Source: a bacterium
GTDB lineage: Bacteria > Pseudomonadota > Alphaproteobacteria > Rhizobiales > JAKIUO01
Direction of reading: 5' to 3'
NCBI GenBank assembly: GCA_024228495.1
Contig: JAAETJ010000180.1
Span: 1 to 51,314 of the forward strand
Length of the DNA: 51,314 nucleotides
Each line of letters starts with the position of its first letter. Positions within the stretch are counted from its first letter, which is position 1. A program made the translations under genes and the position numbers. Below, piece after piece: positions 14,406 to 35,985 of the stretch. The notes below the pieces were generated by a model. It saw only the letters and a program-made list of their open reading frames with translations, was not told the DNA's origin and searched no databases.

Positions 14406-16382
14406 CTAACGGATGATCTTGCCGTTCTCGCGCACGCACATATTGGCTTTGATGGTCACGTCCTCGTCGGGAAGACGGCAGGTCACATAGTCGTCAGGCT
14501 TGATACCAGCGGGAATTTTATCAGCAGTTCTACGAATTGGAAAACGTGCGAACTTGTCGACAAAATTATCATTTGACTGGCAATTGTGCAGCCGTTTGTT
14601 TTTAGGACCACCAGCGACAAATAAAGCATGGCCACGTACGAGATGACAATGTGTGGCTTTGTAATACAGGTGTGGATCACCAAGCTGAGTTTTGGCGAAT
14701 GTTTCCAGTCTTCGCAAAATACCAGTGCGTGGCAACCCCGTCACAGCAATATCATTGTTGCGCTCAAAAGCGCGTATTGCCTTGCTGGTCTTTTGCGTAA
14801 ACTGCCCATCCAGCCTGCCAACGGTATAACCCAGAAAATCCAGTATGGTTTTCATGCTTTTTATTCGGTTACCAGAGAGCTGTTTATGCCCTAGCTCCTC
14901 ATCACATTTTTCTGCGGTGGTCTGGCTAACCCGTTTTTTAGCTGTCAAATAGCAAGTCACTTGTTCGTTTGGCGCAACAGTCTGCTTACTCCATACGGGA
15001 AGCTTTTGCAAAAAGGCAATCTGACCTCGCGACAACAGGCAAGCACTCAACTCCATTCTTTGTTTTTTGATCCAACCACGTAACCGTGTTCGGGGAATAT
15101 CGAGGCATATAATCTGTTTTTTAACATCAGATCGAAAACGCCGTGGCAGACGATCCAGTCGCTTTCCCATATATCTCAGATTTTCCAAAACCTGCTGGTT
15201 CGGTTGCCCCGTATCACGCATGCCAATCCGTTTTTGAACAGCTTGGATAGCTCGAATGCTCATTGGACCCATGGCGCCATCAATAGGCCCTGGGTCAAAA
15301 CCAGCTCTAGTCAGAAGAGATTGCACCTCCCTTACGGTTTTTCGCTCAAGATAAATGGTGTTGGATTTTATTGATTGAGCATAGCGCTTAAATGCATGCG
15401 AACTAACGCCCAGACCTATCTTTGACGTAAATTTTTTCCGAACAACCCGCTTACCTTTTTTCCAAAGACGATAGCGCTGACGAAAACCGACATTGATACC
15501 AATGACGCTGACGCCCTTGTCTGTCTCGACCAATATTGGTGATCCTGATGAACCTGACGAAATATCACAGGTATGATACAGCTGGTTTTTTGACGATTTT
15601 CGACTAGGCCTCACTGAACAATTTCTTGAAATGAGAAGCCCGGCATTTGGCTTGTCGCCATGATAACCGGCAATGAAAATACGTTTTTGACGATTAGCCT
15701 TGCGCAATTCTTTGTCACTCAGAGTCAATAATTCAAGCCCTCTTTGACAGATAGGCATACGCAATCTGGCCACCGCCCAATCTTTTAATAAAAAGCGTTG
15801 CGAGCGCGAGAAACGAGAATTTCCAGAAGTAACTTGCCGGGCCATACCCTCTTCGTTGAGACCAGCTAGAAACGAATGTCGCGGGGCATCATTCTTATCA
15901 TGGAATTTTTGGTATAACTGCCACATTGCGAGAGACTTTTGCTCTTTTGTCACCCCCTTGAGCTTTGTACTTGCAATATGATATTTTGCCGGAACAAGTA
16001 TAAATTTAAGATTATCTATCGCCACTCCCCATTTTTTTTTCTTTCTACTCAGCACACAATGGGAAGCCGTAGCAATCGCTCGCTCGCCAATACAAAACGC
16101 CGTGCAAGATCTGGATTTTTTTTGATCTATCAGCAAGCCGATCTGATCGGCCAACCAAAAATTTTTCGGCGCTACCGGGGTGCGATCATCACGTCCGAAA
16201 ATCACAACGCGTGGTTTCGCCTTACGTTTTTTTGCAATTGTGACGATCACTTCATCTGATGCACTAACCTGATTGAGAAGGACAGTATCTGCCAATACCG
16301 AACTCATCTGTAATATCGATAGCAAACCAATTGTGAGTGCATATTTTATTGTAAATTTTTTGAAAAACCTTCCGCTTATCAA
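14406..16382 (-). CDS. Secreted trypsin-like serine protease with two peptidoglycan-binding-like repeats
   Basis: This 658-residue protein has an N-terminal signal segment (hydrophobic around residues 12-31). A trypsin fold follows with the triad visible as TASHC (His near residue 107), LLKDWAVARL (Asp near 200) and SSGSSGSP (Ser near 275). Two PGB1-like repeats come next: VQSLLTRAGFDPGPIDGAMG near residue 353 and ILDFLGYTVGRLDGQFTQKT near residue 525. Between and after them are Cys-rich segments without a known family. The protein is very basic (many KKK/RKR runs). The likely place of action is the periplasm or cell wall; substrates are unknown. It stands alone, with a REP-like element beyond its 3' end. 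The protease fold is well supported, the peptidoglycan binding reasonably so. Confidence 0.75.
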   Translation of the reverse strand: MISGRFFKKFTIKYALTIGLLSILQMSSVLADTVLLNQVSASDEVIVTIAKKRKAKPRVVIFGRDDRTPVAPKNFWLADQIGLLIDQKKSRSCTAFCIGERAIATASHCVLSRKKKKWGVAIDNLKFILVPAKYHIASTKLKGVTKEQKSLAMWQLYQKFHDKNDAPRHSFLAGLNEEGMARQVTSGNSRFSRSQRFLLKDWAVARLRMPICQRGLELLTLSDKELRKANRQKRIFIAGYHGDKPNAGLLISRNCSVRPSRKSSKNQLYHTCDISSGSSGSPILVETDKGVSVIGINVGFRQRYRLWKKGKRVVRKKFTSKIGLGVSSHAFKRYAQSIKSNTIYLERKTVREVQSLLTRAGFDPGPIDGAMGPMSIRAIQAVQKRIGMRDTGQPNQQVLENLRYMGKRLDRLPRRFRSDVKKQIICLDIPRTRLRGWIKKQRMELSACLLSRGQIAFLQKLPVWSKQTVAPNEQVTCYLTAKKRVSQTTAEKCDEELGHKQLSGNRIKSMKTILDFLGYTVGRLDGQFTQKTSKAIRAFERNNDIAVTGLPRTGILRRLETFAKTQLGDPHLYYKATHCHLVRGHALFVAGGPKNKRLHNCQSNDNFVDKFARFPIRRTADKIPAGIKPDDYVTCRLPDEDVTIKANMCVRENGKIIR

Positions 16383-26470: not shown

Positions 26471-26801
26471 TTCTGCATTGATGACCAATCAGATCTTCAA
26501 CCAGCACGCCACCAACAAGATGCTCATTGATAATGCGGTCTAGATTTTCCTCGGTGACATTATAATACCAGATGCCATCGGGCTGAATGGACAGCACCGG
26601 TCCCGATTTGCAGGTGGCAAAAGAATGGGTGCGGGTGCGCTTGACGCGCAAGTCGCCCTTGTTGATCCTCGCCTCATGAAACTTTTCACCTAGCACGCCA
26701 AATAGGGTCTTTGCCTCTCCTTCTTGCGTACAAAGGGGGCCAACGCACACCAGCATATGCCGGTGATAGTCGATCATTGCGGGTTTTTCCAATTCACTCA
26801 T
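26463..26801 (-). CDS. Thioredoxin-like [2Fe-2S] ferredoxin domain protein
   Basis: This 112-residue protein resembles the thioredoxin-fold ferredoxins found in alphaproteobacterial cob clusters: MLVCVGPLC near residue 16, then RTRTHSFATCKSGPV near 56, then DGIWYYNVTEENLDRII and NEHLVGGV. As I recall the family, the middle motif reads SCFATCK with two Cys; here the first of those is replaced (HSFATC), leaving one Cys at that site plus C19, C24 and a late Cys four residues from the end. An unusual cluster ligation or loss of the cluster is possible. It lies between cobJ and bluB with overlaps, so it may pass electrons to a B12 enzyme. Partner unknown. Confidence 0.7.
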   Translation of the reverse strand: MSELEKPAMIDYHRHMLVCVGPLCTQEGEAKTLFGVLGEKFHEARINKGDLRVKRTRTHSFATCKSGPVLSIQPDGIWYYNVTEENLDRIINEHLVGGVLVEDLIGHQCRNG

Positions 26802-28165
26802 TGATCTGAAGTCTCCAATTGTTTGGCAGCGGATTGATGAGATTGCCAGTTTACTTCAAAAGCCTTGAAGGCAGCGTCATCAAATTGTTTGTCGGTGCGC
26901 ACGAGCGATATGTTGAAAACGGAATGCCCGTGAATGTCGGTAAAAAAAGCGCTGCGATAGCTGTCGTCCCTGCGTACCAGCGTGACTTTGGTGACAGATG
27001 ACCAGTTGATATGCAGATGGAAATGATCGTTTTCGATATTGAGCCAATCGTTTTTTTGTACCAGGTCTTTTGCATGCGTTTTCAGCTCGCTAATGGCCCC
27101 TGCTTCTGACCGTACAACGGCGCGCAACAGCCCCCATTGTTTGGCGGCTTCAATGATAGAAAAGGTATCACCTTCGATGGCCAAGGCTTCGAAATCGCCT
27201 GCTTTGTCATCATCACTTGCCGCTGTTATTGCTTGCAGGATCTGACCCAGAGGGGCGTTAAAATGTTCTGCGACCTTGCGCAGGGTATGGAACTTGCCAT
27301 TGCGCATATATTCACGCACCACGCCATGCCATTCGGTCAGGCCCATAGAGAGCGAGCGACCTTTTTTCTCCCCTTCCAGAGCATCGCCGGTAATGCCATC
27401 ATATTTATTGGCGTAACCGCGCCGGGTGATCATTAAACCGTCTTGCGTGAAAGTGCTGCTATTGCCAATCAGTACTGTTGTCAGCATGCCTATTTCGTAT
27501 CCGCTCATCTCGTCAAGTCGCACCATCTGGATATCCTGACGACGGCGATAGGCTGATTTTACTATGGCAACGGGGGTATCTGGCTTGCGGTAGCGCAGCA
27601 AGATTTCTTGCGCCTGTTCGATTTGCCCGTAGCGACGGCTGCTCTTTGGATTATAAAGTGCAATGACGAAATCACTGGCTCCCACAGCATTGAGACGCTT
27701 GGCGATGGTCGGCCAGGGGGTCAGCAGATCCGACAGGGAGATCGAGCAAAAGTCATGTGTGAGGGGAGCGCCAACCAGCGATGCGCAAGCGCTAAGTGCC
27801 GTTGTTCCCGGGATGATCTCCACCTTGATATCATGGTCCGGCATCCAGCCTTCTTGCAGCAGCACTTCAAAGGTAGGTCCCGCCATGCCGTAAACGCCGA
27901 TATCGCCAGATGATATGAGCGCCACGGTCTTGCCCATTTTTGCCTGATCATAGGCTTCGATGCAGCGATCAATTTCTTCGGTCATGCCCTTGCGGATGAT
28001 TTCCTTGCCGACCAACAGATCCTTCACGAGCTTGATATATGTGGAATAGCCGATGATGACATCCGCCTCTTGCATGGCTTCAAGAGCGCGCAAGCTCATA
28101 TGTTCCCTGGCGCCGGGACCAACGCCCACCAGCAGTATTTTGCCGTGTTTGTTTTCTGTACTCAT
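26798..28165 (-). CDS. cobJ: CobJ/CbiH C17-methyltransferase fused to a HemS/ChuX-like domain
   Basis: This 455-residue protein has two parts. Residues 1-250 are a tetrapyrrole methylase: LLVGVGPGAREHMSLRALEA at the N-terminus, GDIGVYGMAGPTFEVL near 85, IIPGTTALSACASLVGAPLT near 118 and LYNPKSSRR near 169, all typical of the ring-contracting C17-methyltransferase. Residues 265-440 are not part of usual CobJ. They resemble one repeat of the hemin-utilisation proteins HemS/HmuS/ChuX: a LRKVAEHFNAPLGQIL helix, then a LLRAVVRSEAGAISE segment, then NDWLNIENDHFHLHI with VTKVTLVRRDD and a FFTDIHGHSVFNISLVR strand pair. The HemS link is my pattern reading and needs a profile search. A heme- or corrinoid-binding add-on would fit a B12 enzyme. 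The gene overlaps cobE and the ferredoxin gene by four bases. Confidence 0.88.
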   Translation of the reverse strand: MSTENKHGKILLVGVGPGAREHMSLRALEAMQEADVIIGYSTYIKLVKDLLVGKEIIRKGMTEEIDRCIEAYDQAKMGKTVALISSGDIGVYGMAGPTFEVLLQEGWMPDHDIKVEIIPGTTALSACASLVGAPLTHDFCSISLSDLLTPWPTIAKRLNAVGASDFVIALYNPKSSRRYGQIEQAQEILLRYRKPDTPVAIVKSAYRRRQDIQMVRLDEMSGYEIGMLTTVLIGNSSTFTQDGLMITRRGYANKYDGITGDALEGEKKGRSLSMGLTEWHGVVREYMRNGKFHTLRKVAEHFNAPLGQILQAITAASDDDKAGDFEALAIEGDTFSIIEAAKQWGLLRAVVRSEAGAISELKTHAKDLVQKNDWLNIENDHFHLHINWSSVTKVTLVRRDDSYRSAFFTDIHGHSVFNISLVRTDKQFDDAAFKAFEVNWQSHQSAAKQLETSDQ

Positions 28166-28564: not shown

Positions 28565-29308
28565 CTATTGCCCCTCTGGCGGGCGGTAGACGATGAGACG
28601 CTCGGCCAAGTTGTCCCACATGGATTGCGGAACTTCTTTTTGGGTGATCCACAAAATACTTTTGTGAGCGTTCAGGTCGACATCGGCAAAGCGCTCGAAC
28701 AGATGGATATTTTTGGGCAGAGGTGTTTTTGGTTTCCACCAGTCCTTTGATCCGCATTCCTGCACGAGCGCTACAGGTTCGTCATTGACGATATGGGCCG
28801 AGACGCGAATGAGGTTCCATTTGGGGGCTTCGATCTTCCAGTCAAGATCACGTCCCAATATATCGACCGCGATGGTTTTGCGGGCATCTGACGCGGTGGT
28901 AAGGACGGCGCGTGCACCTAAAATGGTGGCTAACTGTTCAGCAAATTCATTGGCGCCACCGACATGGCCGGACAAGACGGGGATGACATATTGCGCGGCA
29001 TCATCGACCACCACGACGCCCGGGTCGATCTCCTTGGATTTGAGATGGGGAGATATAAGCCGCACAACGGCACCAAGTGAAACAAAGAAAACGATCTGGT
29101 CAAATTGCTCAAACAAGTGATCGATCTGGGCTTTGCTGGGGCCTTCATAGGTGTGCAGCCGGTCTTTGAAAGGTTTGAAATTTTCAGCAAACTTTATAGG
29201 CACGGCGATGGTTGCATCCGTTAGCTCGGTTGCAGCTTTTTTGACGAGTTCGCAGCCATGCTTGGTGATGGCCAAAAGGGCAACTTTCTGATTTGGGCTA
29301 CCGGTCAT
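28565..29308 (-). CDS. cbiG: Cobalt-precorrin-5A hydrolase CbiG, N-terminal and middle domains
   Basis: This 247-residue protein carries the CbiG N-terminal and mid domains: KVALLAITKHGCELVKKA at the N-terminus, IVFFVSLGAVVRLISPHLKS near residue 70, VVVVDDAAQYVIPVLSGHVG near 98 and GANEFAEQLA followed by LTTASDA. The usual C-terminal domain is missing and encoded by the next gene (cobE). The start is the ATG at 29308, overlapping the cobI stop as ATGA; the longer frame to 29380 lies in cobI. CbiG belongs to the cobalt-early route, where acetaldehyde is released. Confidence 0.92.
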   Translation of the reverse strand: MTGSPNQKVALLAITKHGCELVKKAATELTDATIAVPIKFAENFKPFKDRLHTYEGPSKAQIDHLFEQFDQIVFFVSLGAVVRLISPHLKSKEIDPGVVVVDDAAQYVIPVLSGHVGGANEFAEQLATILGARAVLTTASDARKTIAVDILGRDLDWKIEAPKWNLIRVSAHIVNDEPVALVQECGSKDWWKPKTPLPKNIHLFERFADVDLNAHKSILWITQKEVPQSMWDNLAERLIVYRPPEGQ

Positions 29309-30120
29309 GGGTTCAGTACACTTTCTTTTTTGTCGCTGTCTTTGCCTTGATTGTCTGAGTTCAAAGGTTTCTTGCGGCAACCACCCAAGATTTCGCCGCG
29401 TTCGCGATCCGGATTTTTGACGAGCATCAAGGAGAGATAGTTGACGGTTTGTCCCTTGAGAGTGGAGACATCGTGCACCACGCGCTCTTCGAGGCTACCG
29501 GCTTTCTCTATGAAGGCGGCGTGTTGCGTAAGTCCTCGTTGCTCCAGCAGGGCGATAATATCATCCAGCAAAGGTTTGACTTTCATCAGCACCAATGTGT
29601 CAAATTGATCGAGCAATTGATCAATAGTCTTGATGCCGTAATTGGCCGGGATCACTGCCATTTTATCGTCAACCTCGGTGAGCGGGAATTGCAAACGGGC
29701 GGCGGCGGCATTGAACGAGGAAACGCCAGCAATGGTTTCAATCGTAATACTGCTATCCATGGCGGTGACGTGCCGCGCCAGATGTCCAAAAGTCGAATAG
29801 GTCGAGGCGTCCCCTTCCACCAGAAATATCACATCGAGCCCGGTGTTCAAAACTTCCAATACTTTTTCCGCAGCCCGTTGGCGAAACTTGCCAAGCTTGC
29901 TCTCGTCATGGGTCATGGGAAATATCAGCGCGCAATGATCACCTGGTGGTGCAAGTCCGGCGCGGGTGGCAATGTTCATCGCATAGCTGTCGCTTTTTGA
30001 ATTGCGCACCGGATAGGTCCAATAGGCGTCCCGGCGCAACAAGCTGTCCGCTTTGCGCGTGATTAGCTCTGGGTCGCCGGGACCAACCGAGACGCCGTAT
30101 AGTTTTCCGTTCTTTTTCAT
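29305..30120 (-). CDS. cobI: Precorrin-2 / cobalt-precorrin-2 C20-methyltransferase
   Basis: This 271-residue SAM-dependent tetrapyrrole methylase (CobI/CbiL) has GVSVGPGDPELITRKADSLL at the N-terminus, PMTHDESKL near residue 68, LVEGDASTYSTFGHLARHV near 100 and ETIAGVSSFNAAAARLQFPL near 128. Together these identify the C20 enzyme. With CbiX present, its natural substrate may carry cobalt already. A gap of about 50 bp separates it from the unknown gene upstream, and it overlaps cbiG downstream. Confidence 0.95.
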   Translation of the reverse strand: MKKNGKLYGVSVGPGDPELITRKADSLLRRDAYWTYPVRNSKSDSYAMNIATRAGLAPPGDHCALIFPMTHDESKLGKFRQRAAEKVLEVLNTGLDVIFLVEGDASTYSTFGHLARHVTAMDSSITIETIAGVSSFNAAAARLQFPLTEVDDKMAVIPANYGIKTIDQLLDQFDTLVLMKVKPLLDDIIALLEQRGLTQHAAFIEKAGSLEERVVHDVSTLKGQTVNYLSLMLVKNPDRERGEILGGCRKKPLNSDNQGKDSDKKESVLNP

Positions 30121-30172
30121 TTTACTGTTCGTTTAATCCTCTGGGAAGGTGGCTATGTCGAGGCTCACCGTG

Positions 30173-30808
30173 TCAGTTATTTTTTCTGCAATGATTTTTG
30201 TAACTATTGATATTTGCAAAAAGGGCGTTTAGTTCGTTCTCTTTTTGGGGTTTGAAATGGAGTGTAATTCCCGATTTGGATAAATGACTGGATCGGGATC
30301 CACTACACATATGTAGAAGGTGAGAACTTAAGAAATTTTTGAGCTTCGTTGCTGATGCCGTGGGATCAGCGGGTTGTCCGCCAGGCGAAGAGGAGCCGCT
30401 TTGCAGGGTTCTTAGATTGGTGAGTTGAATGGCTATGCTCGCTTTATTTGTGAATTGAAGGGCGAGAAAGGCAATGCGCTTGCGACGTTTCCCTTTTCCA
30501 ATATAAGTCTGTAATTTTTTTATTTCTGGCAGGTGTATGATTATTTCTTCTCTTTTATGTTGTTTTGGAGAATTGCAATTGTTTATTCTGCGGGCATCTA
30601 TCGATATAAGACAGCTCGTCGTCCGGACATCATATGTGCTTGCATTACTATCGGAATAAGCCATGAGGTGTTTTTTCAGGCCATATTCTATTTTTTTCTC
30701 AAGGGCAGTTATGTCCGCATCTTCTGTGCTCATGAGGTAAGTTACAATAAGGATCGCAGCAAAACCACCGACAATGGCCAAGATAAGTTGTGTTCCGGTA
30801 TAGTTCAT
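30173..30808 (-). CDS. Unknown single-TM protein inside the cob operon
   Basis: This 211-residue protein begins MNYTGTQLILAIVGGFAAIL, with a TM helix at residues 5-26. A short acidic stretch (STEDADITALEKK) and a basic mixed region follow; four or five Cys are scattered over the rest. The ATG at 30808 has AAGGAAG upstream and lies one base beyond the cobL stop, so it is co-transcribed with cobL. No motif or family is recognised, and base use is more AT-rich than the neighbours. The soluble part most likely lies on one face of the inner membrane. It could be a pathway accessory or an inserted passenger gene. Confidence 0.6.
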   Translation of the reverse strand: MNYTGTQLILAIVGGFAAILIVTYLMSTEDADITALEKKIEYGLKKHLMAYSDSNASTYDVRTTSCLISIDARRINNCNSPKQHKREEIIIHLPEIKKLQTYIGKGKRRKRIAFLALQFTNKASIAIQLTNLRTLQSGSSSPGGQPADPTASATKLKNFLSSHLLHMCSGSRSSHLSKSGITLHFKPQKENELNALFANINSYKNHCRKNN

Positions 30809-30809
30809 A

Positions 30810-32126
30810 TCAAGTCTTCCTTGCGCTGATAATCCATACAAGATTTTGCGCCGTAAAGCGGTGCATGTGCAAGATGGGCTTGCTGCGTGATACCTGCATT
30901 TGCGTGACGTCCCAATTGACGTCCAGTTCTTTTAATGTGTTGGTGGCAGTTGCCAGATTTTCAATGGTGACAAAATTCATTACGAGGGTGCCATCTGGTT
31001 TCAAGCGTTTCATGATGAGGCGAATGAGATCCCCCAGATTGCCACCAGAACCACCAATAAAAACAGCGTCAGGGTCGGGCCATTTGTCAAGACCATCAGG
31101 GGCTTTACTCTGTAGAAGATGATAATTGTGTACGCCAAGATCTCGCCGATTCTGCTCCGCGATCACGGCGTCCGCATTGTTTTTCTCAATAGCGTATATA
31201 TAGCCATCGGGGACGAGACGGGCTGCTTCGAGGCCAACGGAGCCAGAGCCAGCGCCAATATCCCAGACGATAGATTCTTTGTGCAATTGCATGTAGGCCA
31301 GCGACACGGCACGTACCTCTCGCTTGGTGATCAGTCCCTTGTCGGGTTTGCGCTGATGGAATCGTTTATCGGGAAGGCCGAACAGAACATGTTTTGGCTT
31401 CAGGTTCACACGCCAGAGCAGCACAATATTGGGATCGGCAAATGTGTGATCAGCCGCCTCCTTGATGGTGAGATCGTTGATGAGGCGCTCGCTGTCCCTT
31501 TGCAGATGTTCAACAATCGCCATTTGAAAATCACCTTGTAGGCCTTGCGCGATCAGCATGCGGGCCAGGCGGTCAGGGCTGTTTTGAGGACTGGTGAATA
31601 TGGCCATGCGGTCATGGTTTTGCACCGCGTGCAAGACGGGATAGAGGCCATGCTCGACGCCCTTGGTGTGATCCCATTCTCCCATATCCTTGCTATGCAC
31701 CGAACAGATTTTGAGCTCGTGCCACGGGATGCCAAGACGGGCGCACGCCAGCTGTACCATCGATAGGTTTGGTAAAATTTCAAAAGCTTCAATGCAAAGC
31801 CGCGATTGCAAAAAGCCTGCAATGCCATGGCAAAGAGGATCGCCGGTGGCCAGTACCACGACGCGCTTGCCAGCTGATTGTGCGTTGCTGATTTGCTCTG
31901 GTACCTGCATGAGATGTCCTGTGAGGTCAAATGTCTGGCAATCTCTGGCAAAAACCTGTTCGAACAGGTTGAGTGTGCGGGTGCCGCCAATTACGAGATC
32001 GGCAGAACCTATATGATCAAGCATGGGCTCGGTCAGTCCTGCTACGCCATCATCATGCACGCCGATGATACGGCAGGGATTGATGGAGGGAGCTTTCGAA
32101 GCGATCAGTTCAGTCGGCTTGTTCAT
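30810..32126 (-). CDS. cobL: Precorrin-6Y C5,15-methyltransferase (decarboxylating), CbiE-CbiT fusion
   Basis: This 438-residue bifunctional enzyme methylates C5 and C15 and decarboxylates the C12 acetate. Its N-terminal CbiE half (to about residue 220) has ADLVIGGTRTL, VVVLATGDPLCHGIAGFL and LPNLSMVQLACARLGIPW. The C-terminal CbiT half has GLITKREVRAVSL, the SAM motif VWDIGAGSGSVGLEAARL near residue 289 and AVFIGGSGGNLGDLI near 356. Both halves are complete. It overlaps cbiD by four bases. Confidence 0.96.
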   Translation of the reverse strand: MNKPTELIASKAPSINPCRIIGVHDDGVAGLTEPMLDHIGSADLVIGGTRTLNLFEQVFARDCQTFDLTGHLMQVPEQISNAQSAGKRVVVLATGDPLCHGIAGFLQSRLCIEAFEILPNLSMVQLACARLGIPWHELKICSVHSKDMGEWDHTKGVEHGLYPVLHAVQNHDRMAIFTSPQNSPDRLARMLIAQGLQGDFQMAIVEHLQRDSERLINDLTIKEAADHTFADPNIVLLWRVNLKPKHVLFGLPDKRFHQRKPDKGLITKREVRAVSLAYMQLHKESIVWDIGAGSGSVGLEAARLVPDGYIYAIEKNNADAVIAEQNRRDLGVHNYHLLQSKAPDGLDKWPDPDAVFIGGSGGNLGDLIRLIMKRLKPDGTLVMNFVTIENLATATNTLKELDVNWDVTQMQVSRSKPILHMHRFTAQNLVWIISARKT

Positions 32127-33244
32127 TGATTGCCCTCTTGTGACCTTGCTTCTGCCACTTGCGTACCCTTGAAATCGCTAACCAGCACTCTGAGCGTGAA
32201 TTTGTCCCGGTAGCGCCCTGTCACGGTGTCGATGACTTTCTCGGCCACCGCTTGCTGGAAGGCGATGTCCATGCCCAGCGGTTCGAGGCGTTCAATGGCG
32301 AAGCGGGCGGTGATAGCGGTAGCAATTTCGTTGCAGACATCTTCGGCGACCCCAAGTTCAACTGCGATCTCTGCGAGCATTTGCGTGTTGACCTTGGAGC
32401 GTCCGGCATGGGTGATGGTTTCACCCTGGGCAATCTTGGTGAGCTTGCCGATCATGCCGCCAATGATGACATGCTTGATGCCTACCTTGACGGAGGTGTC
32501 CAGCGCATAGCGCAAGAAATCACCCATTTGTACGAAGCAAACAGGGGGCAGGTGCGAGAGCTGTTTGATGACGAATTTTTCGGTGCGCCCGCCAGTCGTC
32601 AGCACGATCGTATCTTGGCCATTGGCTTTGGCAACTTCAATTCCCTGAATGACGCTGGCCCGAAATGCGACGGTGGAATAGGGGCGTACGATACCTGTTG
32701 TACCAAGAATCGAAATGCCACCCAATATGCCGAGGCGGGCATTGATGGAGTGGGTTGCCATTTTCTCACCGCCGGGTACCGAGATGGTCACTTCCAGTCC
32801 CTGTTCTTGTAACAATTTATCTCCGGCAGCACGCACATTTTCCTCGATATTTTGACGTGGCACCGGATTGATGGCGGGGCCGCCAACTTCCAAACCAAGT
32901 CCGGTAAGGGTAACAGTGCCAACACCGTCGCCCCCTTTTAGCAGCACTTTGCCGCTGGCATCTGGTAACAGGCATACGTCAGCGGTGAGATGTGCTTTAT
33001 CGGTGCAATCGGGGTCATCGCCTGCATCCTTGATGACCACGGCATGAGCGTAATTATCATTGAGCCGCGCTTCGATGACCTCAAATTTTACCAGCTGGCC
33101 ATTGGGCAACTTGCATTCAATGTGGTCAGGAATTTCCCTCGTTACCAGTCCCTGGGTCGCAGCTTTTGCCGCCGCCGCTGAACAAGCGCCCGTCGTGAAA
33201 CCGGTGCGATCTCCACGTTTCTTCTTTTTGGGTTTATTCGTCAC
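32123..33244 (-). CDS. cbiD: Cobalt-precorrin-5B C1-methyltransferase
   Basis: This 373-residue protein methylates C1 in the cobalt-early route; a typical aerobic pathway uses CobF instead. Marks are GDRTGFTTGACSAAAAKAA at the N-terminus, KDAGDDPDCTDKAHL near residue 74, GGDGVGTVTLTGL near 105, ILGTTGIVRPYS near 180 and VIIGGMIGKLTKIAQG near 263. The start I choose is the GTG at 33244, giving the normal family length. The longer open frame to 33379 runs through a palindromic repeat and is not protein-like. Confidence 0.94.
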   Translation of the reverse strand: MTNKPKKKKRGDRTGFTTGACSAAAAKAATQGLVTREIPDHIECKLPNGQLVKFEVIEARLNDNYAHAVVIKDAGDDPDCTDKAHLTADVCLLPDASGKVLLKGGDGVGTVTLTGLGLEVGGPAINPVPRQNIEENVRAAGDKLLQEQGLEVTISVPGGEKMATHSINARLGILGGISILGTTGIVRPYSTVAFRASVIQGIEVAKANGQDTIVLTTGGRTEKFVIKQLSHLPPVCFVQMGDFLRYALDTSVKVGIKHVIIGGMIGKLTKIAQGETITHAGRSKVNTQMLAEIAVELGVAEDVCNEIATAITARFAIERLEPLGMDIAFQQAVAEKVIDTVTGRYRDKFTLRVLVSDFKGTQVAEARSQEGNQ

Positions 33245-33256
33245 GATAGATCTAAC

Positions 33257-33374
33257 CCCCTCACCCCGACTCTCTCTCCCTTTTTTCTCCAAAGAGAGGA
33301 GGAGAGGGAGTAAAGCTGGCTCGGCTGAACGCCTTTTGCTGCCTCTCCCATAGAGAGAGGGCTGGGGTGAGGGG
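33257..33374. repeat. Large imperfect palindrome between cobH and cbiD
   Basis: CCCCTCACCCC (33257-33267) and GGGGTGAGGGG (33364-33374) are perfect arms. Inside, CTCTCTCCC and GAGAGAGGG-type purine/pyrimidine tracts pair further (GGAGAGGGAG near 33301). CCCTCACCCC...GGGTGAGGGG elements of this kind recur between genes in many proteobacteria. It interrupts an otherwise overlapping operon and would form a strong RNA hairpin just upstream of cbiD. Confidence 0.8.
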
Positions 33375-33407
33375 AGCAAAAGCTAGTATTTTCTCTAAAC
33401 CAAACCT

Positions 33408-34079
33408 TCATTTGCTCGCCTTTTGTTTGGTTTCGGCTAGTGCCAGCAGGGCATGGATGGCGGCAACTACCAGCGTCGAGCCGCCCTTGCGCCCGCGGGT
33501 GGTCATCCAGGGAATGGTGCCTAGTTCCGCCAGCACATTTTTTGATTCTTCCGCCGACACAAACCCCACCGGCATACCAACGATAAGCGCTGGATTGATC
33601 CCGTCTTCCTTGATCATGCGAATGATTTCCAGCAGAGCGGTAGGCGCGTTACCTATGGCGACGATGCCGCCATTGAGTAATTCAAGATTTTGCGCTTTGC
33701 GCATGGCCTGTACCGCTCTGGTGCTGTTCATCTGCTTGGCCTTGGCGATTACGTCTTCATCCGAGATAAAGTGATGAGGTACGGTACCAAAATGTGACAA
33801 TCGTGGTTTTGATAGCCCCACGCAAATCATTTCTACATCAGCGACAATCGCTGCACCTGACATGATTGCGCTGAGCCCGGCACTGACACAATCGGGATGA
33901 AATTTTGTGAGGCCGTTAAATTCAAAATCGGCGGTGGCGTGGATCATGCGTCGGACAATCTGCCACTGCGCCTCGCTATAATTGCCACGTTCGCCAGCTT
34001 CATGATCGACAATCGCGAAACTGTCATGCTCGATCTGTTGACCAGCTTTGGTCATTTGTTCGGTTATTGCATTGCTCAT
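33408..34079 (-). CDS. cobH: Precorrin-8X methylmutase
   Basis: This 223-residue protein (CobH/CbiC) moves the C11 methyl group to C12 to give (hydrogeno)cobyrinate. It has IVRRMIHATADFEF near residue 42 with the catalytic His, PIVADVEM-like AAIVADVEMICVGL near 76, AIGNAPTALLEI near 146 and GMPVGFVSAEESK near 168. Complete and typical. It overlaps cbiX by four bases; a palindromic repeat follows its stop before cbiD. Confidence 0.96.
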   Translation of the reverse strand: MSNAITEQMTKAGQQIEHDSFAIVDHEAGERGNYSEAQWQIVRRMIHATADFEFNGLTKFHPDCVSAGLSAIMSGAAIVADVEMICVGLSKPRLSHFGTVPHHFISDEDVIAKAKQMNSTRAVQAMRKAQNLELLNGGIVAIGNAPTALLEIIRMIKEDGINPALIVGMPVGFVSAEESKNVLAELGTIPWMTTRGRKGGSTLVVAAIHALLALAETKQKASK

Positions 34080-35769: not shown

Positions 35770-35985
35770 GTGAAACTTTCTGTAGTTACCACGTCGGATA
35801 TTCATCAAAAAATGTCATTTCCGCGAAGGTGGGAAACCAAACGGCTATCCACTTGCTCTTTGTTCAAAATACCAAAATACTAGCTGCGCGCCTGCAAGTA
35901 AGTTTTGGAGACAGTGCTTGCAGATGGTCGCTTGGGTCCCTGCCACTGCGGGGATGACGTTTGTTGGATATGTCGATTGAGACAT

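Follow-up and report, generated by a model that had tools for sequence, protein, structure and literature searches.

What kind of gene is the open reading frame that lies between cobL and cobI in the B12 gene run of this bacterium, and does its place there point to a B12 role? The frame (211 aa) was found in a 51,314-nucleotide stretch of DNA, referred to here as the window, in which the B12 genes run along the minus strand from a cobalamin riboswitch (39058–38832, minus strand; Rfam RF00174, 100 bits) to about 20 kb. It occupies positions 30173–30808 of the minus strand; the original prediction gave no strand. The upstream neighbor is cobL, a CbiE-CbiT fusion (30810–32126, minus strand), and the downstream neighbor is cobI (29305–30120, minus strand), both identified by NCBIfam models (CbiE/CbiT and CobI, respectively). 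The ATG of the frame (30808–30806) begins one base past the cobL stop codon (30812–30810), and its own stop codon is separated by 52 bp from the ATG of cobI, so that the predicted position, one base after cobL and ahead of cobI, is borne out by the coordinates. Within this gene run, 17 of the 20 junctions measured are 11 bp or shorter and 10 of those 17 are 4-bp overlaps, some start codons having been picked by the analyst; the three wide junctions are cbiM-cobM (216 bp), cobH-cbiD (154 bp) and that between the frame and cobI. By eye, a Shine-Dalgarno-like AAGGA (30818–30822, minus strand) lies within the end of cobL, 9 nt 5′ of the ATG of the frame. The cobI gene is here without its overlap with cobL, and by eye all that it keeps is a GAGGA (30137–30141, minus strand) located 16 nt 5′ of its ATG, which is far for a Shine-Dalgarno sequence.

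The frame is best regarded as a lineage-specific insertion, a conclusion that is supported by direct overlap of cobL and cobI in three genomes of the same genus and in two more distant loci. In the window, 713 bp lie between the blastn edges within cobL and cobI (30110–30822); the corresponding gap is 32–33 bp in the contigs of the siblings G001, G002 and G004, giving a net insertion of about 680 bp. In all five of the other loci (these three siblings, each with a cobL match, plus the more distant L054 and L055), the two genes overlap directly without the frame, the overlap reading ATGA in the three siblings and in L054, and TGATG in L055; loci L051–L053 are the G002, G001 and G004 loci again and were counted once. 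A fourth sibling, G003, is uninformative on the junction because it has no cobL match. One genome (G000, that of the window) carries the insertion. The original prediction had offered a recent insertion as one of its readings; the insertion itself stands, with five of five loci lacking the frame, while its recency does not follow, as a long branch separates this genome from the siblings (dS 0.7–1.1) and the insertion could have happened anywhere along it. Over the same branch, cobL, cobI, cbiD, cbiG_N and cobJ show dN/dS values of 0.06–0.13 against the siblings; these genes are under purifying selection and the pathway has been kept.

A trivial origin for such a singleton would be an assembly chimera, considering that the genome bin comprises 5.1 Mb in 1254 contigs with a stated contamination of 4.5% and that the insert is found in this genome only. 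However, both flanks are collinear with those of the siblings, and the insert sits exactly at the gene junction with its ATG one base past the preceding stop codon, which makes a chimera very unlikely. No repeats of 12 or more bases were found in 29900–31100, where mobile-element ends were sought, and a direct repeat of 8 bases that occurs close to each end of the insert is no evidence of a mobile element, because 287 of 5000 shuffled pairs share such a repeat too. The insert has no second copy in its own genome, where the next match had an E-value of 0.47. Rfam matches were all far under their gathering scores, four stretches that were folded as DNA in search of attC-like or other structure did no better than shuffled sequence (z −0.89 to +1.01), and a search of the minus strand of 29900–31000 turned up no terminator-like site.

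In composition, the frame stands apart from the operon, as had been predicted: its GC content is 40.9%, relative to 49.3–55.7% for the 19 other genes of the run. Its codon usage is also unlike that of the operon (coding score −0.10, compared with +0.12 to +0.27 for the 19 operon genes), its GC content by codon position is flat (0.43/0.41/0.39), and over its full length it shows weak base-by-codon-position periodicity (12 of 2000 shuffles were equally strong), which is absent from the last 80 codons, residues 131–211 (1078 of 2000), with the boundary near residue 130 having been set after looking. The un-hostlike codon usage and the aperiodic last 80 codons look as in a decaying gene. The flat codon use had initially favored a non-coding insert with a chance open frame, or an open frame that arose de novo, and the failure of ordinary searches to return a match agrees with that reading. 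Nevertheless, when the 692-bp insert was dinucleotide-shuffled, only 2 of 5000 shuffles contained a stop-free run of at least 200 codons in any of the six frames. An open frame of this length is therefore unlikely to be due to chance, and the reading was dropped because relatives turned up; these share its approximate length, hydrophobic start and cysteines (see below), and a non-coding or de novo origin is now extremely improbable. As had been claimed for the product, there is a single hydrophobic stretch, residues 8–26 (codons at 30731–30787, minus strand), with a Kyte-Doolittle value of 2.57; when the frame was dinucleotide-shuffled and translated, 2 of 2000 shuffles reached this value. An AlphaFold2 model built from the single sequence without an alignment was uninformative (mean pLDDT 36).

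Standard searches gave no relative of the frame. At the search thresholds there was none in 41 genomes (its own included; best foreign E-value 0.03), and none in samples drawn, with overlap, from the order (397 genomes), class (385) and phylum (398). A pattern scan that detects close relatives only returned none from a collection of 84,980 species or from IMG/VR, and searches of phage, plasmid and PHROGs sets and of Pfam, NCBIfam, PADLOC and PDB sequences were also negative. No cob or cbi family came near its cut-off in Pfam or NCBIfam although the neighbors do match such models, in agreement with the prediction that the frame matches no known B12 gene. The subthreshold hits were rejected: a peptide chain release factor (RF-1) domain scored 14.2 bits in Pfam relative to a cut-off of 35 and 11.5 in NCBIfam relative to a cut-off of 370, and ZFYVE21_C (PF16696) scored 16.8 bits relative to a cut-off of 25 (E-value 0.0058) and had no match in L004, L071 and two of L072, the relatives that were scanned. 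Several weak matches from the 41 genomes (L002, L003 and L005–L008) scored no higher than shuffles against the g70 profile described below, and L002 and L006, when read through, held nothing resembling the frame. The tblastn matches at L003, L004 and L007 (0.001–0.003) are biased, these loci having been retrieved by that very query.

A family was reached only by following one weak match into a profile. In the 41-genome search, a gene of genome G027 matched the frame with an E-value of 0.06, which on its own is at chance level, as several chance matches are expected over 41 genomes. The match lies in a stretch of 228 residues (its start codon is unsettled) with a hydrophobic start likewise placed, and the two proteins align end to end with 23% identity. 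Beyond the initial match, the alignment of residues 153–211 beat 2000 of 2000 shuffles and that of residues 127–211 beat all except 11, but the first 60 residues aligned no better than shuffled sequence (1176 of 2000). When 297 genomes of the order were searched with a profile (A1) built from the two proteins, 11 genomes gave E-values up to 0.2, of which five were accepted: G000 and G027 themselves, along with G120 (5.2e-5), G149 (6.7e-4) and G272 (8.2e-4). The last three belong to one genus, designated g70, and encode proteins of 218–225 residues; G120 has a single gene, and G149 and G272 each carry a second, tandem copy that was not picked by the A1 search. The family set thus has seven members of the same order, namely the window protein, the G027 copy and five g70 genes in three genomes. 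Among the remaining A1 matches, that of G092 (E-value 0.0034) is a frame antisense to a longer one and is missing from the listing of g70-profile matches, as are those of G191, G080, G121, G113 and G114 (E-values 0.08–0.18).

An alignment of the seven proteins (A2) contains ten invariant residues, given here in the numbering of the window protein: Glu37, Cys66, Ile68, Cys78, Glu88, Ser161, Cys168, His175, Tyr203 and Cys207, the alignment around Ser161 being uncertain. The codons of the four cysteines, each kept in seven of seven members, lie on the minus strand at 30611–30613 (Cys66), 30575–30577 (Cys78), 30305–30307 (Cys168) and 30188–30190 (Cys207). The spacing of the first two cysteines is 12 in every member and that of the last two is 36 in six members and 39 in the window protein; extra cysteines occur only within the hydrophobic start, in four of the seven. 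All seven have such a start (Kyte-Doolittle 2.0–2.8 over 19 residues, beginning at residue 3–11), which in the g70 proteins resembles, by eye, a cleavable signal peptide. The window protein has in common with this family a length of 211–228 aa, the N-terminal hydrophobic segment, the four cysteines and Glu37, Glu88, His175 and Tyr203, but differs in its low identity (15–21% in A2) and in that the relatives are located outside a cob operon. No name for the family was found in Pfam, NCBIfam or PHROGs, and no relative among PDB sequences, where the best matches of the frame, A1 and A2 (E-values 0.31, 0.81 and 0.11) were taken as chance. The phage, plasmid, IMG/VR and PHROGs searches were equally negative for the family members tried.

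Several tests bear on membership of the window protein in this family. When a profile was built solely from the five g70 proteins, the frame scored 25.8 bits (E-value 3.4e-6, residues 30–122) and the G027 protein 28.3 bits, compared with 8.1 bits for the best of 5000 shuffles of the frame and 5.7 bits for the best non-family open reading frame among 4224 scanned, a number that includes the family copies. There is some circularity in this comparison, because the g70 genes were found with a profile that contained the frame; a selection artefact is argued against by the tandem copies, which were unselected, and by the shared cysteine spacing. In pairwise global comparisons of the domain, G027, G120 and the first copies of G149 and G272 beat all 1000 shuffles. 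The second copies were weak over the whole domain, the score of the G149 copy (4.5 bits only with A1) being reached by 28 of 1000 shuffles and that of the G272 copy by 7 of 1000. A motif of four cysteines, with the first pair 12 apart and the last in Y-x3-C near the C terminus, is present in seven of seven members and in 0 of 200,000 shuffles of the frame, and among 1043 open reading frames of at least 150 aa it occurred only in 19 copies of the family, although the pattern was written after seeing the sequences. Taken together, these comparisons point firmly to homology of residues 30–125 with the family.

The tail of the protein is a separate matter. When the last 75 residues of the six relatives were made into a profile, the frame scored 4.0 bits with 99 of 5000 shuffles higher, a result that, from six rows only, lowers rather than removes the case for a homologous tail; pairwise tail scores were reached by 3 (G027), 8 (G120), 106, 189, 88 and 30 of 1000 shuffles. 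The failure of this tail-only profile, together with the end of periodicity near residue 130, a boundary that was picked post hoc, would be expected of a truncated gene that reads into a random tail. This explanation is weakened by Cys168, His175, Tyr203 and Cys207, which are common to all seven proteins, and the tail is probably homologous to the family as well; the frame is best read as a real protein gene, probably of full length. A related possibility is that the frame is a passenger, a transferred gene or fragment that is open and drifting and yields no useful product. The un-hostlike coding score, the aperiodic last 80 codons, the poor conservation of the tail by score and the confinement to a single genome all fit that account, while retention of the four family cysteines and of nearly the full length, along with a ribosome-binding site and placement that by eye appear usable, leave it unlikely, if still to be taken seriously.

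The genomic settings of the relatives speak to function. The G027 copy (G027:C507) follows a PhyH gene (PF05721) and has 37% GC in flanks of 63% GC. A second gene of lower GC content near it (L068:4847-5512) also has, by eye, a hydrophobic start and a short domain. In all three g70 genomes, the copies are flanked on one side by a dCTP deaminase gene (PF06559/PF22569) and on the other by a gene of Cys/Met metabolism (PF01053), metZ-like by eye. When the 19 cob proteins of the window were used as tblastn queries at 1e-3, none matched in the 16 kb around each g70 locus, and there was no convincing cob gene in 20 of the 22 kb of the G027 contig; the one exception, a cobL match there (L069; 25% over 144 aa, E-value 8e-4), was taken as a general methyltransferase-type match. 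By comparison, the control locus L055 gave matches for 14 of the 19. The original prediction had proposed a new B12 accessory factor and had named homologues solely outside cob clusters, or their absence from close relatives, as what would speak against it. Homologues were in fact found outside cob clusters only, with none in close relatives and none between cobL and cobI at the five other loci, and the designation of B12 accessory factor is not supported, if with some residual probability for this one lineage. Because the relatives found sit elsewhere, a hitchhiker in the operon is the most likely description of this gene. Corrin-ring enzymes such as CobL and CobI are cytoplasmic, which makes a direct role in the pathway unlikely.

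A less direct connection with B12 would be through cobalt. The frame might encode an envelope accessory of cobalt or corrinoid acquisition that was recruited in this lineage and may help the remaining CbiM-like protein, and its position in a riboswitch-led cob operon, the CbiM-like protein of the window and the lack of CbiN (PF02553) matches in all five genomes of the genus, its own included, are in keeping with such a role. CbtA (PF09490) is furthermore present in G001, G002 and G004 (three of the five genus genomes) but not in G000, where the gene of this predicted cobalt transporter subunit has apparently been lost. On the other hand, neither CbiN nor CbtA is among the Pfam matches of the frame, the relatives found sit elsewhere, the siblings that bear CbtA also lack CbiN, and G003 (88% complete) likewise has no CbtA match, leaving this role improbable. 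The more specific proposal, that a family protein under riboswitch control captures cobalt or corrinoids at the membrane and so offsets the lack of CbtA, is less probable again, and nothing ties the loss of CbtA to the frame. CbiN has about 100 aa, and CbtA has several membrane segments. CbtA is carried in the same operon by three siblings, but at the cbiM-cobM junction; this junction (35770–35985) has 216 bp in the window compared with about 1 kb, including cbtA, in those siblings. CbiN, a partner of CbiM, resembles the product of the frame in being a small membrane protein encoded in an operon with a cbiM-like gene, but has two membrane segments rather than one, according to PMC2667541, in which CbtAB also figure as predicted cobalt transporters.

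We consider that the frame is, with a probability of about 0.68, a genuine gene that was inserted at the cobL-cobI junction and would encode an exported envelope protein of an unnamed family, using the operon for expression. The gene would have entered this lineage from an AT-rich source, probably by horizontal transfer. Its position and sequence suggest that it shares the cob transcript headed by the cobalamin riboswitch and that its translation relies on the Shine-Dalgarno sequence inside cobL. The product is laid out as a hydrophobic signal or anchor followed by a four-cysteine domain, and the combination of a hydrophobic start with paired cysteines has the look, we infer, of an anchored or secreted protein with a periplasmic domain. 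The N-terminal segment is predicted to send the product to the inner membrane. Given this hydrophobic start and the conserved cysteines, some 180 residues would form a domain outside the cytoplasm that is stabilized by two disulfides, with Cys66-Cys78 and Cys168-Cys207 as the simplest pairing. Such a protein would not act on corrin intermediates, its riboswitch-led expression following from where it landed; our likeliest guess is that it binds or stabilizes something in the envelope. A gene of a conserved operon that looks like an ORFan can thus prove to be a remote member of a patchy exported family, and the present case is a warning against guilt by association, the cob-operon location here being no pointer to a B12 role. 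The unnamed family also offers a small target for structural work.

Other features of the window and of its siblings were observed along the way. Between cobH and cbiD (33240–33413) there is an extra 150–170 bp that is absent at this place in three siblings and is partly matched at five further sites of this genome, making it a dispersed repeat that is REP-like by eye. In sibling G004, cobI (L049–L050, G004:C55:26680-27440) is divided into two overlapping frames, one with a stop codon, as the result of either a frameshift or an assembly error. An array of small open reading frames at 79–1570 contains two pieces of colicin/pyocin-S-type DNase domains (PF21431) and three small frames with a common PDP..SD motif that appear, by eye, similar to immunity genes. 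At 14406–16382, a stretch without a blastn match to the siblings encodes a 658-aa protein with trypsin-like and peptidoglycan-binding domains, and at 26798–28165, cobJ carries a C-terminal ChuX/HutX-like domain (PF06228, 9.3e-10).
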